The notes under the pieces are model-generated. The model did no database searches. It was not told the origin of the DNA and saw only the letters and a list, made by a program, of their open reading frames with translations. DNA of 64,000 bases from Candidatus Fimadaptatus faecigallinarum (lineage in GTDB: Bacteria; Bacillota; Clostridia; Christensenellales; Aristaeellaceae): positions 1-64,000 of the forward strand of contig DVNK01000030.1 of NCBI GenBank assembly GCA_018714445.1, in the 5' to 3' direction. Both the position numbers and the translations under genes were made by a program. Shown in pieces: positions 2,880 to 9,332 of this stretch. Within the stretch, counting starts at the first letter, position 1; the number at the start of each line of letters is the position of its first letter.

Positions 2880-2914
2880 TTGAATTTCATGAACATTTAT
2901 CGTATACTGTATAC
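2880..2914 (+). promoter_or_regulatory. Promoter with overlapping palindrome, kinase operon
   Basis: TTGAAT (2880-2885), a 17-bp spacer and TATACT (2903-2908) lie just upstream of the HTH-like gene. The -10 is embedded in the perfect palindrome GTATACTGTATAC (2902-2914), a possible operator. Confidence 0.6.
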
Positions 2915-2941: not shown

Positions 2942-4114
2942 ATGCAAAACTACACGGAACTCTCACAAAAAGCATATGACCTGGCAATCGCGCCCGGAAT
3001 GAGCTCGAGACAGGCGGCGGAATGGCTCATGAATGCCGCCTCGTTCCAAACGCTGCCGGAAAAGCTGCTCAAGTTCTACCCCGGCACGCCCGATGATTTG
3101 CAGCGCCTGTTGCGCGATGAGCTGTACCGCTCCCACCCCGACGCCAACGAGCGCGATTCAATCCGAAAAAACGTCCGCAACTGGTTCACCGTCGCAAAGG
3201 GCATAGACGATCGCACGATATCACGCCCATATGCGCTTGAGATATGTTTTATATTAAGGCTGACGCTGGAGCGCGCCGATCAGCTGATGAAGGCCGTCGC
3301 CGGCATGGGCATACACTACCGCTCGCCCATCGAATTTGTCGCCGCATACGCGCTGGACAACGGCCTTACATACTCACAATACGTCGAACTGCTGGGCCAG
3401 CTGTCCACAGAAGGTCTGCTTGAGCTGTCCGACGGCGCCGTCAGCGAAAGCTTTACGCCGGTCGTCGCCGCCGCCGTGCGCATGCTCCACAGCGTGCCCG
3501 AGCTAAAGCGATACCTGCGCGAAAACCGCGGCGACTTCAGCGCCGCGCACAATACCGCGCACGCATTTCTCACCGACATGCTGGACGTGCTCCAAAACGA
3601 GGGCACTGACGCCACAGTGGGCGAGTTGATCGAACGTAACCTGTACCGCCGCTTCGTCGCGCGCCACAGTCAGCTCTCCGCGCTCGAAAAGAGCATACGC
3701 AACGGTTGGCCCGATGAGAGCCAGATTTCACGCATGCGTACACGCGAGATACCCGTCGGCCGCAAGACGCTTATATTGCTGTACCTGGCCTCAGGCGGCG
3801 GGCTATCGGTCAAGGCCCCTCAAACCGACGCCGCATGCGACGGCGATACCGCCTATGACGATTTCGACTATGACGACTACGGCGACGTAGATATCTCTGC
3901 CGGCGACGCAGACTTCGATGCAATGCGCATACAGCTTGACGCGATGTTGACCGACTGCGGGTACGCCCCGCTGAACCCGCGCCAGCCATTTGACTGGATG
4001 GTGCTTTTCGGCATAGCCACCGGCGACCTGTTCGACCTGGACGAGCGCTTCGAAACGCTGCTGGGCGAACTGTTTGGAAACGCCCCGCAAGCACGACCCT
4101 CACGCCAGTTATAA
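2942..4114 (+). CDS. HTH-like protein preceding the receptor kinase
   Basis: The protein has 390 residues. Residues about 55-110 read like the helix-turn-helix region of Xre-type regulators (IRKNVRNWF, then SRPYALEICFILRLTLERAD), followed by helical segments. The C-terminal part has a very acidic stretch (DDFDYDDYGDVDIS). I do not recognise the full-length family. The start at 2942 is preferred over 2936 because GAGG lies 7 nt before it. It is the first gene of a three-gene block: 29 bp later the kinase-NACHT gene begins. A natural inference is that it is a substrate or transcriptional output of that kinase. No phosphosite can be named from sequence alone. Confidence 0.7.
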   Translation: MQNYTELSQKAYDLAIAPGMSSRQAAEWLMNAASFQTLPEKLLKFYPGTPDDLQRLLRDELYRSHPDANERDSIRKNVRNWFTVAKGIDDRTISRPYALEICFILRLTLERADQLMKAVAGMGIHYRSPIEFVAAYALDNGLTYSQYVELLGQLSTEGLLELSDGAVSESFTPVVAAAVRMLHSVPELKRYLRENRGDFSAAHNTAHAFLTDMLDVLQNEGTDATVGELIERNLYRRFVARHSQLSALEKSIRNGWPDESQISRMRTREIPVGRKTLILLYLASGGGLSVKAPQTDAACDGDTAYDDFDYDDYGDVDISAGDADFDAMRIQLDAMLTDCGYAPLNPRQPFDWMVLFGIATGDLFDLDERFETLLGELFGNAPQARPSRQL

Positions 4115-4143
4115 TATAGTCAAATAACTGCGGAGGTAAGTCT

Positions 4144-7119
4144 ATGGACAAGCGACGGGGACTGCCTGCAGGTACATTGCTGAGCTTTCCGGGCATGACC
4201 TGTGAGATAGTTGCCGAGAGCGGTCGCGGCTCAAACGCGATAGTCTACCTGGGCCGGTATTCCGACGCGCTCAACGCCGGACAATGGCACAATGTGCTGA
4301 TAAAAGAACTGTTCCCATACCACGACAGCGGCGCGATATATCGCAGTGAAACCGGTTCGACAGTGTGCCATACCGACGAAGGCAGCGAACTCATGGAGCT
4401 GCACCGCCGCAGCTTCATATGGGGCAATGAGGCGCATCTGCGACTGCGCGCCGCCAACCCGGCCGAAGTGAGCGGCAACATAAATACATTTCCTTACAAT
4501 GGCACCTACTATACGATTCTCGACTTCAACGGCGGACGCACACTTGCGGCCGAGTTGAACAGATCCGACGAGCAGGTCACACTGCGCCGCATGATCCAGC
4601 GCATAATAGGCGTGCTTGATTCATTGAGCATATTCCACAACATGGGATTTTTGCATCTGGACATAAGCCCTGACAACATACTGCTGATAGGTCGCGGCTC
4701 TCAAGAACGAGTGGAGCTCATTGACTACAACAGCATAGTGCCCATAAGTGCGCTCAATGCCGGCCAAACCCCGCGTCTGAGCATAAAGCCCGGCTACGCT
4801 TCGCCCGAAGCCCGCGCGCACGACACTCGCTTAATAGGCACATGGACCGACCTGTACTCTGTAGTTGCAGTGCTGTTCAACCACCTGATGGGGCGGCCGC
4901 TGTCCAACATGGAAAGCAGCGGCGTGCGCAGGCCCGACGTGAGCGAAAGCCGCTACCTGTCAGACGCTCCCGAAACAGTGCGCAGCCTGCTGCGCCAGAT
5001 CGTCGCCCATGGCCTCGCGCCCACAGTGCGCCGGCGCTATCAAACCGCCGCCGAACTGCGCGCCGACCTGTGCGAACTGCTCGACCGCATCGACGGCGTG
5101 GGCGTGACGCACTGGGCGCTGTGGGAAGTCGCACGCAAGTGCATACATCGAGAGGTAAAGCTCAATCCGGCCGCGGATTACCTGACGGATGAGTCGCGCC
5201 TGTACCCGCTTGAGCTCGACAAGCCCGCAGGCAGCGGCTTTGAAGCGCTGCTCATGGGACGCGCAGTGCTGACCGGCAGCGGCGGCGCAGGCAAGACCAC
5301 GCTGCTGATGCGCACGGCATGGCTAGAGAGCCTGCATTACCGGCGCGACCGGCCGGCAGTGATATACCTGTCGCTATACGGCTACCATCCGGGCGACCCA
5401 GGTTTCATACGCGACAGCCTGCTCAGGCGCATGAAGTTCAAGGCCGATACCTCCAGCTATGCCGACGCACGCCACGCGCTGGAACTGTTGCTGCAAAAGC
5501 CGCTGCGCACCCGCTCAGGTACAGCGCCGGCTCTATGCCTGCTGCTGGATGGCTACAACGAGATCAGCGGCGACACGCATTCGCTCAGGCAGGAGATAAG
5601 CCAGCTTGCTCAGCTGGACGGCGTGAGCATGCTCATCGCCAGCCGCACTGCGCTGCGCGAATACCCATTTGAACACTGGCAACTCAGGCCGTTAGCCGAA
5701 TCCACGGTGCGCGCAACGCTCAGCGCCGCAGGCCTGCTTATGCCCGAGTCGCCGCAGTTGCTGGAACTGCTGGCCAATTCCATGATGCTCAGTTTATACG
5801 TGCGCGCTTGTCTTGACAGTCATGAGCAGGTTCAGATATCCACGCGCGAGGAACTCATACGCGCATACCTGAGAGCGCTACTTGCCAAGGAACTGGCCGC
5901 ATTGCCGCCAGACGCACCGCAACGCTGGCAGATCGATGCCGCAATTAAATGCGTATACCCCATGATAGCCGACATGGAGGTGCAGCGCGGCAGAAGCGTT
6001 GCCGGCAAGGAGCTGCTGCATCGCATGGAACAGCTCTATCACAGCCTCAACCGGCGCGCACTGCTCAAGCGCTATCCCCAATGGATAGGCCACGCCGCCG
6101 ACATACGCGGCTCGACCCGTGATGGCGACGAGTGGTACGGGTTGATGATACACGACCTGCTCTGGCGCAGACTGGGATTGCTGTATCAGGACGCGTATGG
6201 CGAATATCGCGTGGCGCATCAGGAGTTCCGCGACGTGCTCTCGGGTTCGGGCCGGGCGCTGCGACCTCTGTTTACGCGGTCACACAGGCTCGGCCTCATG
6301 GCTATCGGCGGAGTTTGCATGGCTCTGGCCGTATGCCTGTTCATATTGCAGTTGGGCAGTACTCGGTCATATGACGTAAACGGCGCGCTGGATGCGCTGT
6401 CGTACGTTCAGGCCACATATATGGGCATGAACAACCAGTATGCCACCATGCTAAGCCTGCTGGGCAACGCTCAACCCGATCAGTCGGGTTTTGACCCAAA
6501 TACCAGCTCGCTCACATACAGCTTTGACGACGCGCGCCGCGCACTGGACAGCAATGTAGCCATAGTCGCACTTGACCTGAATGCCGACGGTCATGTGGCC
6601 TCCGAATGCGCCGGATTCATATCCGACAAGCTGAGCGTTGGCGAGCACTTCCCCTGGAACGAGTTGGCGTTCGACGTGGAGCGATTCGATGACATGACCG
6701 CACACTTCGACGAATGCAGCGAGCGCTACGCTACATACATAGACTTGCTTGAATTCACATACCTGCGTGCCGACGACTACGCGCGCTGCCGGGAGCTTAT
6801 TCGGGCCGTACTGGACGCCAATGCGCGCGTTGCCGCAGCCTACAACTGCCTGCTGCTCACCAGACGGCTGGACGGCCTGCCGGCATGGGAAACCACCGCC
6901 GCCGGCGCCGCGGCCCAAGGCGCGTATCAGCGCTTAGACGATGGACGCAAGTATTGCAGCCAGACCAATGCGTTTATACAGTCGGACTGGCTCGAATTGA
7001 GCCTTGAGCAGTTGGCTTCTGATCTGACCGACGCGTTGGACGCTGAATACGCCGCGCGCACGGCACTGTCCAAAGATCCGGCATACGCTGATTACCTGGC
7101 GGCGACATTGACCGCTTGA
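4144..7119 (+). CDS. Membrane receptor: Ser/Thr kinase fused to NACHT-type NTPase
   Basis: The 991 residues divide into four parts. First is a Hanks-type kinase (about 15-315) with a glycine loop (SGRGSNAIVYLG), Lys54 (VLIKE), catalytic HLDISPDN (Asp173, Asn178), DYN in place of DFG at 194-196 and SPE in place of APE. Second is a P-loop NTPase with Walker A GSGGAGKTT (378-386) and Walker B LCLLLDGYNE (464-473), of the NACHT/STAND type, followed by a helical region. Third is one membrane span at about 716-740. Fourth is a 250-residue C-terminal domain that would lie outside the cell. Catalytic residues of both enzymes look intact. A sensor that couples ATP-driven oligomerisation to phosphorylation is inferred. 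The gene starts 10 nt after GGAGG and sits between an HTH-like gene and a lipoprotein gene. Confidence 0.85.
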   Translation: MDKRRGLPAGTLLSFPGMTCEIVAESGRGSNAIVYLGRYSDALNAGQWHNVLIKELFPYHDSGAIYRSETGSTVCHTDEGSELMELHRRSFIWGNEAHLRLRAANPAEVSGNINTFPYNGTYYTILDFNGGRTLAAELNRSDEQVTLRRMIQRIIGVLDSLSIFHNMGFLHLDISPDNILLIGRGSQERVELIDYNSIVPISALNAGQTPRLSIKPGYASPEARAHDTRLIGTWTDLYSVVAVLFNHLMGRPLSNMESSGVRRPDVSESRYLSDAPETVRSLLRQIVAHGLAPTVRRRYQTAAELRADLCELLDRIDGVGVTHWALWEVARKCIHREVKLNPAADYLTDESRLYPLELDKPAGSGFEALLMGRAVLTGSGGAGKTTLLMRTAWLESLHYRRDRPAVIYLSLYGYHPGDPGFIRDSLLRRMKFKADTSSYADARHALELLLQKPLRTRSGTAPALCLLLDGYNEISGDTHSLRQEISQLAQLDGVSMLIASRTALREYPFEHWQLRPLAESTVRATLSAAGLLMPESPQLLELLANSMMLSLYVRACLDSHEQVQISTREELIRAYLRALLAKELAALPPDAPQRWQIDAAIKCVYPMIADMEVQRGRSVAGKELLHRMEQLYHSLNRRALLKRYPQWIGHAADIRGSTRDGDEWYGLMIHDLLWRRLGLLYQDAYGEYRVAHQEFRDVLSGSGRALRPLFTRSHRLGLMAIGGVCMALAVCLFILQLGSTRSYDVNGALDALSYVQATYMGMNNQYATMLSLLGNAQPDQSGFDPNTSSLTYSFDDARRALDSNVAIVALDLNADGHVASECAGFISDKLSVGEHFPWNELAFDVERFDDMTAHFDECSERYATYIDLLEFTYLRADDYARCRELIRAVLDANARVAAAYNCLLLTRRLDGLPAWETTAAGAAAQGAYQRLDDGRKYCSQTNAFIQSDWLELSLEQLASDLTDALDAEYAARTALSKDPAYADYLAATLTA

Positions 7120-7154
7120 CGCCCATGTTCAAATCCACGCAAGGAGCTGGAATT

Positions 7155-8333
7155 ATGAAAAAACTGCTTAAAGCCATACTGATACTGGCGTTGAGCGCCC
7201 TGCCTCTGGGGTGTGCAGGCGCTGAAGCCGCGGACTCACCCATCGAGCGCATGCTGAGCGACTGGACCGCGGTGGCATACACACAGGACGACATCTTTTC
7301 TCAACAGAATTTTGCGCTCGAACTGATACTGGCGTTCCATCAGGACCCGACCTGGGACAATCTGGTGCGCGCCCGGGCTGCCGCTTCATTTACATGCGAG
7401 CTGATGGACTACTACGCGCAACACGAGCTCGCCGCCAGCGCATCTGCCGACGATTACGCGCAATTGATCTCTCAGGGCCTGGACGTGGCCGACGTACAGG
7501 CCACTGTAAACGCCTACGCGTCTGAACAGTCCGCTCAACAGCGCGAGCTGGACGCGCGCACATGGCAGATCTACTATGTGCCGGAACTCATGGAGTGCGC
7601 ATACACCGCCGATTGGGTAAGCGCACTGGCGCTCAACGCGAGCGCACGCGCAACTCACAACGATTTGGAGCTGCAATACTGGTTTTTGACCAACAACTTC
7701 CTGGTATTGCAGTTGCCCCAGGCCGACGCGGACAAGCTGGCCGAGTGGTCGCGTCAGAACCTGCCGGCAATAATGCGCAGATATCCTGAACTATTCGGTT
7801 CAGAGAACGAATTGCTCAACGAGCTAAATGAGACGCTGGAGCTCATGGCCGAAAACATGCTGGTATTCAACTCCGCGCTGGCCATGACTCAGGCAGATCT
7901 GAACGAGTTCGATGCCGAAGCCGTCGCATCAGACGTACTTGAGATAGCCGGTCTGCCGCGCGTGCTGCCGTTGCCGGCGTCACAGGGCATCGCGCTGGGC
8001 GACGTGACATACTATTGGACCGATGCCGATGGCAACATAACCCCGCTTGAGCGCCTGATGGCGTTCGACGAGCTGCCCAACTGCATGAACATGCAGTACA
8101 CCGGCTGCACCATCGAAGGTTTCCAGGCATACGTGCTGGAACTGGCGCACTATGGAGCTGAGCTCGCGGCCGCAGGCGACACAGTCGCCAGTTTCGACGT
8201 GGACGGCGTGGAGCTGTTGGTTTGGGTGGACGAGTCGGCGCAGACGCTGGACATACATGTATCCGGCGGCCAGATCTGCCTTGCGCCCAACTACTACGTC
8301 GAAGCGCTATCCGTTTCGGCTGACCAGAAGTGA
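7155..8333 (+). CDS. Lipoprotein following the kinase-NACHT gene
   Basis: This is a 392-residue protein with a lipoprotein signal (MKKLLKAILILALSALPLGC; lipidated Cys20), so it should be anchored on the outer face of the membrane. The rest is mostly helical and acidic in the first 250 residues, with a likely beta-rich end. I recognise no named domain. AAGGAG lies 8 nt upstream of the ATG at 7155, which rules out the longer in-frame TTG start at 7116. It follows the receptor kinase gene by 35 bp and is probably co-transcribed. A role as external ligand-binding partner of the kinase's outer domain is inferred from position only. Confidence 0.75.
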   Translation: MKKLLKAILILALSALPLGCAGAEAADSPIERMLSDWTAVAYTQDDIFSQQNFALELILAFHQDPTWDNLVRARAAASFTCELMDYYAQHELAASASADDYAQLISQGLDVADVQATVNAYASEQSAQQRELDARTWQIYYVPELMECAYTADWVSALALNASARATHNDLELQYWFLTNNFLVLQLPQADADKLAEWSRQNLPAIMRRYPELFGSENELLNELNETLELMAENMLVFNSALAMTQADLNEFDAEAVASDVLEIAGLPRVLPLPASQGIALGDVTYYWTDADGNITPLERLMAFDELPNCMNMQYTGCTIEGFQAYVLELAHYGAELAAAGDTVASFDVDGVELLVWVDESAQTLDIHVSGGQICLAPNYYVEALSVSADQK

Positions 8334-8792: not shown

Positions 8793-9332
8793 ATGAGCAT
8801 GACATCTGCCAGCATCATGGCATGCTTTCTGACCAAAGGCGTAATGCCTCAGCTCGAGCGCATGGACAAGCTGCACTATGGTGAGCAGAAAGTCGATGAA
8901 ATATTTACGCACGCACTTGCTGGCGCAGCCGCGGGCCCTGCCGCTGCGATACCCGGCAGCAGCATATTGCTTATCGGCTCCGTCGGCAGCTTATGGTCCA
9001 TGTACTGCCGCATAGGAAATGCAATGAGAATAAAGCGCTCTAAGGCCGTGCTCAAATCGCTGACATCTGCGTTCATAGCCACTGTATCCAGCAGCGCTAT
9101 AAACATCGCTGCCGTTATAGCAGCCGCCACGGCGATATCGTTCATACCCGTGCCGGGCACGGTGAGCGCCAATCTGATTATGGCCGGCATCGATTTTGCA
9201 GTGGCAGTCGTTGCCGCCATGATTTACATCAAATTGCCGGGCCGCCTGACCGCCGCCGGCGTGCAGCCCGATCAGCTCGATGAGGACAGCCTCAAAGGCA
9301 TGTTGAAGGATATCATGGCCGATGCCAACTGA
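8793..9332 (+). CDS. DUF697-like membrane protein, C-terminus truncated
   Basis: This 179-residue protein has paired hydrophobic helices (about 41-70, 90-115 and 120-155) with the Ala/Gly-rich pattern AAAGPAAAIPGSS ... ISFIPVPGTVSANLI. This resembles DUF697-type proteins, which often accompany small GTPases or stress loci. The start is uncertain: no clear ribosome site precedes the ATG at 8793 or the in-frame ATGs at 8799 and 8817. The stop at 9330 lies at the first base of the second copy of a 29-bp tandem duplication. Without that duplication the frame would run on through 9490, adding about 41 residues. The protein is probably a truncated version. Confidence 0.6.
   Translation: MSMTSASIMACFLTKGVMPQLERMDKLHYGEQKVDEIFTHALAGAAAGPAAAIPGSSILLIGSVGSLWSMYCRIGNAMRIKRSKAVLKSLTSAFIATVSSSAINIAAVIAAATAISFIPVPGTVSANLIMAGIDFAVAVVAAMIYIKLPGRLTAAGVQPDQLDEDSLKGMLKDIMADAN

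Follow-up and report, generated by a model that had tools for sequence, protein, structure and literature searches.

A conserved kinase-NACHT protein with two gene partners in gut Clostridia: a candidate surface receptor carrying an NLR-type module

Several described systems resemble parts of the locus analyzed here. PknK of Mycobacterium tuberculosis has been described as a STAND-family kinase that is soluble or membrane-associated and stands outside the transmembrane kinases; like gene 2 below, it carries an N-terminal Ser/Thr kinase in a STAND-classed protein, and it acts on regulatory proteins (PMC9045387). The predicted STAND counter-invader proteins, reported mainly from multicellular bacteria, include NACHT proteins with the order effector, NACHT and sensor, in which kinases are listed among the effectors and the C-terminus is lectin-like (PMC8195603). 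The bacterial NACHT (bNACHT) antiphage proteins that have been tested show the same effector-NACHT-sensor order (PMC12169576). The PASTA receptor kinases (PknB/PrkC/Stk1) share another part of the layout, namely a cytosolic Hanks kinase, one transmembrane (TM) segment, and an outer sensing domain. In the open-access literature searched, we found no description of a NACHT module placed directly under a TM segment and combined with an outer sensor, a secreted partner that is co-inherited, and an inner partner dedicated to it.

Herein, we analyzed a three-gene locus in a 64,000-nucleotide stretch of DNA (the window) from Candidatus Fimadaptatus faecigallinarum. All three genes lie on the forward strand. 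Gene 1 (2942..4114) encodes a 390-aa all-helical protein, earlier termed "HTH-like" and treated below as a putative kinase partner. Gene 2 (4144..7119) encodes a 991-aa candidate receptor with the order kinase, NACHT/HD1/WHD, TM segment, and outer domain, and gene 3 (7155..8333) encodes a 392-aa secreted partner with a signal peptide and the non-canonical lipobox PLGC. Shine-Dalgarno-like sequences precede gene 2 (GGAGG) and gene 3 (AAGGAG). Just 5′ of gene 1, a sigma-70-like promoter match (TTGAAT-17-TATACT, 9/12) was located at 2880..2908 on the forward strand, which is weak because the count of promoter-like matches in the region was near the shuffled expectation. Considering this upstream match and that no terminator-like site was found on the forward strand within the 2942–8333 block, the three genes likely form a single operon.

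The neighbors of the operon in the window are ordinary chromosomal genes, encoding a transglutaminase-like protein, an ECF sigma factor, and Spo0A; a glycogen branching enzyme-like gene and sugar genes also lie nearby (names read from the sequence). On the reverse strand at 2298–2645, a 115-aa protein contains approximately four copies of a GHxxxDGNVYxxxxxxG-type repeat and matched no Pfam family above the cut-off. The 179-aa hydrophobic protein encoded 3′ of the operon (8793–9332, forward strand) had no Pfam match, and a weak match of 43 residues to it was observed 3′ of another operon copy (L042 6087–6635).

The N-terminal part of gene 2 (4144..5088, forward strand; about residues 1–315) is a Hanks-type kinase domain, which matched Pfam Pkinase with 39.3 bits (E 6.6e-10), above the cut-off of 31.7. 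The catalytic motifs are K54, HLDISPDN (171–178), D194, and SPE (220–222). In the 25 aligned proteins, K54, H171-L-D173, and N178 were all kept, as were D194, which stands in a DYN or DFN motif, and the last two residues of APE (PE, with E222). A phmmer search of PDB sequences placed PknB (E 2.4e-12) among the nearest solved kinases. Since the family has HLD in place of HRD and DYN or DFN in place of DFG, the kinase is likely, but not certain, to be active.

The original prediction had placed a NACHT-type NTPase behind this kinase. The putative NBD-HD1-WHD module spans 5131..6258 on the forward strand (about residues 330–705). When Pfam NACHT was run on the window protein alone, the score was 18.4 bits, below the cut-off of 26.7. 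Among the relatives, however, 20 of 24 were matched (best E 5.9e-9), and L044, L084, and L086 exceeded the gathering score with 31.2, 35.9, and 35.8 bits, respectively. The family profile also recovered NLRC4 from PDB sequences across the nucleotide-binding core (E 7e-5). Thus, the NACHT profile match holds at the family level, with the window protein taken by itself scoring below the cut-off.

The NTPase motifs of gene 2 comprise Walker A with K384 (5293), Walker B DGYNE at residues 469–473 (5548), the sensor-1 residue R501, and the WHD residue His692 (6217). Walker A, GGxGK(T/S), was present in every aligned relative except L085, a protein without the NTPase; the sensor-1 Arg of the SR motif was conserved with the same exception, and the WHD histidine was invariant among all members having the NTPase. 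Walker B reads LLLDGYNE in the window and mostly LLLDGxNE in the relatives, so that the second D of the NACHT-type hhhhDGhDE is replaced by N. For structure prediction by AlphaFold2, everything after the kinase of relative L076 was used as input (pLDDT 87, pTM 0.48), and the NTPase of the window protein is thus represented by that of a relative. Foldseek matched the NTPase part of this model to NLRC4, NOD2, and NLRP3. VIA-align superposed model residues 1–392 on NLRC4 over 323 residues (Z 20.7, rmsd 4.5), and the match covered the complete NBD-HD1-WHD in NLRC4, NLRP3, and NOD2. Judged from the modeled structure of the relative and the motifs of the family, gene 2 carries an NLR-type NBD-HD1-WHD fold.

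The complete NBD-HD1-WHD and the conserved Walker and WHD-His motifs are shared with the bNACHT proteins and with NLRC4, NLRP3, and NOD2. Those proteins, however, are intracellular and have no membrane-spanning outer sensor, and their effectors are, for example, nucleases or CARD/PYD domains, whereas the effector of gene 2 is a kinase. PknK, in turn, is not a transmembrane kinase, whereas gene 2 has a TM segment. The STAND part of PknK is of the MalT type and that of gene 2 of the NACHT type, and we know of no secreted partner of PknK.

The single TM segment, predicted from hydropathy, lies at 6289..6345 on the forward strand (residues 716–734). It begins approximately 25 residues after the WHD histidine, and the relatives have theirs at the corresponding position; the stretch from the WHD to the membrane contains no cytosolic sensor domain. 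The final ~250 residues (738–991; 6355..7116, forward strand) form a fast-evolving domain, helical in the fusion model of the relative, that is taken to lie outside the membrane. The architecture of kinase, NACHT module, membrane segment, and outer domain, as read in the original prediction, is therefore borne out by the Pkinase match over its cut-off, the conserved motifs, the one predicted TM segment, and the NLR-type fold. Compared with the counter-invader proteins that have lectin-like sensors, the window system occurs in Clostridia, has its TM segment directly after the WHD, and is accompanied by a dedicated secreted partner and gene 1.

To assess how far the three genes travel together, 308 genomes of the window's family were searched for relatives of genes 1 and 2. 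Gene 2 relatives were found in 21 genomes and gene 1 relatives in 26. Co-occurrence had been set beforehand as the result on which the proposed unit could be refuted, and gene 1 was present in all 21 genomes with gene 2 (hypergeometric 4e-28, ignoring phylogeny). The neighborhood was then read at 27 gene-2 loci, two of which (L044 and L086) reached a contig edge. Gene 1 adjoined gene 2 at every locus with enough sequence, except L078; it was divergent in L084 and elsewhere lay upstream in the same direction. Gene 3 lay directly 3′ of gene 2 in 21 of the 27 loci, with a 4-base overlap in several. Gene order was kept in distant genera, and gene 2 was 53% identical over the whole protein to a homologue in another genus, so that both the trio and the architecture lie far beyond chance. 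The trio of genes 1–3 is a real conserved unit of gut Clostridia.

The individual copies differ in their surroundings. Genome G214 carries gene 2 twice, and its second copy, the exceptional locus L078 (6710–10015), has no gene 1 nearby. A TIR-RCC1 protein and a Band-7/zinc-ribbon protein are encoded directly 3′ of the copy in L079 (245–5277), and genes for an AAA ATPase and an Hsp70-like protein adjoin that in L072 (11132–16978, reverse strand). An origin of the locus as mobile-element or phage cargo was also considered and dropped, as no viral contig or phage match was obtained and one distant plasmid caspase-family protein matched the NTPase part.

The conservation of the parts was uneven. 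Mean pairwise identity was 52% for the kinase, 44% for the NACHT module, 40% for gene 1, 26% for the outer domain, and 23% for gene 3, indicating that the outer parts evolve fastest. Natural fusions link these two outer parts. L076 and L080, which belong to different genera, each encode a single protein in which gene 2 continues at its C-terminus into gene 3 lacking the signal peptide, and in L078 the C-terminal part of gene 3 alone is fused to the outer end. The fusion of gene 3 minus its signal peptide to this end fits a gene 2 C-terminus outside the cell. Since the fusion model had a pTM of 0.48 and provided no interface data, the contact between the outer domain and gene 3 rests on the fusions and on gene linkage. 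The proposed link of the outer domain to the third protein thus stands on natural gene fusions rather than on a modeled interface.

In the L076 fusion model, gene 3 consists of a helical N-part followed by a beta C-part. Its product has a signal peptide, and the original prediction called it a lipoprotein. A clear lipobox was present in the relatives L038, L042, and L081, whereas other relatives have a plain signal peptide or are fused, and PLGC of the window protein departs from the canonical [LVI][ASTVI][GAS]C. Lipid attachment may thus apply to some relatives but is not supported as a fixed trait of the family. Searches of Pfam and of PDB profiles gave nothing credible for gene 3 and no recognizable ligand-binding domain, and no reliable match was obtained in Pfam or NCBIfam. 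The idea that gene 3 is a duplicate of the gene 2 outer domain was dropped at an hhalign probability of 1%.

The relative without an NTPase, L085, consists of a kinase, a TM segment, and Sel1 repeats, and has neither NACHT module nor gene 3. The outer domain of L044 likewise consists of Sel1 repeats, but the contig ends there. Considering that gene 3 was missing in the sole readable locus with a Sel1 outer domain, its presence appears to be tied to the helical type of outer domain that most relatives have, and the kinase and gene 1 appear to be the constant core. In L085 (208–5279), the place of gene 3 is taken by a gene for a secreted leucine-rich-repeat protein; it is possible that this protein and the Sel1 receptor are a swapped sensor pair.

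We also considered whether the whole family is a variant, particular to this lineage, of the PASTA-type kinases that sense the envelope (PrkC/Stk1/PknB), in which the NACHT module would be an accessory oligomerizer. The common layout, the position of PknB among the closest solved kinases, and L085, which is exactly a kinase, a TM segment, and an outer domain, agree with this. However, PASTA repeats were not found in gene 2: no PASTA match was obtained, and NCBIfam PknB_PASTA scored 51 against 450 bits, on the kinase region alone. Gene 2 differs further from the PASTA kinases in the NACHT module between kinase and membrane, and all relatives but one have this NTPase. The distribution (21/308) is patchy and not that of a core gene, and further kinases are encoded elsewhere in the window's genome (G000:C51 and C17). 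We therefore regard this explanation as very unlikely.

Gene 1 had been predicted to be an HTH-like, DNA-binding protein. Its AlphaFold2 model is confident and all-helical (pLDDT 85, pTM 0.84), and no reliable match was found in Pfam, NCBIfam, PDB sequences or profiles, or in fold searches with Foldseek and VIA-align. Across 27 gene 1 members, HTH profiles matched two relatives, both weakly (HTH_31 in one case and HTH_54 in the other), and gave nothing for the window protein. With nothing reliable from these searches, the HTH label is unsupported and a role as HTH regulator was set aside, although the weak matches in the two relatives leave it some probability. Homologues of gene 1 were instead found beside other Hanks kinases in L087, L089, L090, L091, and L045, at some of which FHA, PP2C, and PrsW-type genes are also present; gene 1 therefore looks like a general kinase-partner family. 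The five genomes with gene 1 alone had another kinase close by in four cases, and none was near L088, a weak gene 1 match. Searching 397 genomes spread over the phylum with the gene 1 profile gave no other match, so its distribution is narrow.

The kinase cassettes with gene 1 homologues in or beside them lie at L087 5605–16001, L089 184–3690, L090 7495–16000, and L091 1946–9530. Those in L087 and L090, from the same Clostridia, resemble the window locus in having the gene 1 family beside a Hanks kinase, but where the window has the NACHT module and gene 3, they contain FHA-like and PP2C phosphatase genes, to which L087 adds one for a PrsW-type protein. L090 also encodes a 1489-aa kinase-LRR protein.

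A role in defence had also been raised in the original prediction. Gene 2 would then be an NLR-like protein of an anti-phage or competitor-defence system, with the kinase as a toxic effector that halts growth upon a surface threat. STAND/NACHT proteins with N-terminal effectors, including Ser/Thr kinases, are predicted counter-invader systems (PMC8195603; PMC7159879), and the patchy distribution, the fast-evolving and swappable outer parts, and the TIR-RCC1 gene near one copy would suit such a role. However, the PADLOC matches, among those listed, fell essentially on the kinase region of gene 2. The window operon is surrounded by ordinary metabolic and regulatory genes, with the other copies largely among ordinary genes as well; no phage record was matched, and one distant plasmid NACHT-type protein was the sole match. 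In addition, the sensor of gene 2 would face outwards, whereas the bacterial NACHT proteins that have been tested are intracellular sensors. With no support from PADLOC, phage and plasmid matches, or gene neighborhoods, we consider defence unlikely.

We find it fairly probable that gene 2 is a receptor kinase of the membrane in which the NLR-type NTPase switch controls clustering, with gene 3 as co-sensor and gene 1 as partner. The helical outer domain of gene 2 would combine with the secreted product of gene 3 into a single sensor on the outside of the cell. A signal there, from a ligand or from a change in the envelope, would travel along the one membrane helix into the WHD, which lies directly before it. 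ADP would then be swapped for ATP in the NACHT module, which would open and oligomerize in the plane of the membrane. The N-terminal kinases clustered in this way would activate each other and then act on gene 1, which would be their dedicated helical partner, either as the main substrate or as an adaptor presenting substrates.

Against such a receptor switch, the relative L085 does without the NTPase, and in known NLRs the membrane does not separate sensor from switch, whereas here a signal from outside would have to reach the WHD through one helix. The stricter form, a transmembrane NLR with its animal-NLR-type switch directly under the membrane, in which the outer domain and a secreted co-receptor drive NACHT oligomerization and the kinase signals via an undescribed partner family, is put forward more tentatively.

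The signal might also run in reverse, with the cytosolic NACHT module sensing an internal state and the kinase regulating gene 3 or the envelope, so that gene 3 would be the output. NLR switches usually read cytosolic cues, and the want of a recognizable ligand-binding domain in gene 3 is in agreement with this direction. Against it stand the direct passage from WHD to membrane, which leaves no cytosolic sensor domain, the fastest diversification in the outer rather than the cytosolic parts, and L085, which keeps kinase, TM segment, and outer domain without the NTPase. Such a reversal is, in our judgment, quite unlikely.

Kinase-STAND fusions are already known, and it is the membrane-spanning layout with secreted and inner partners that we judge to be unusual. 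NLR-type switches are familiar as alarm proteins inside cells; such a unit, set here between kinase and membrane helix and with a co-inherited partner outside, would carry the NLR principle over to bacterial cell-surface receptors. The analysis also points to the families of gene 1 and gene 3, neither of which had a reliable Pfam or NCBIfam match. As the system is small and modular, with outer parts that swap and with existing fusions, whether binding outside the cell drives the NACHT switch would be directly testable.
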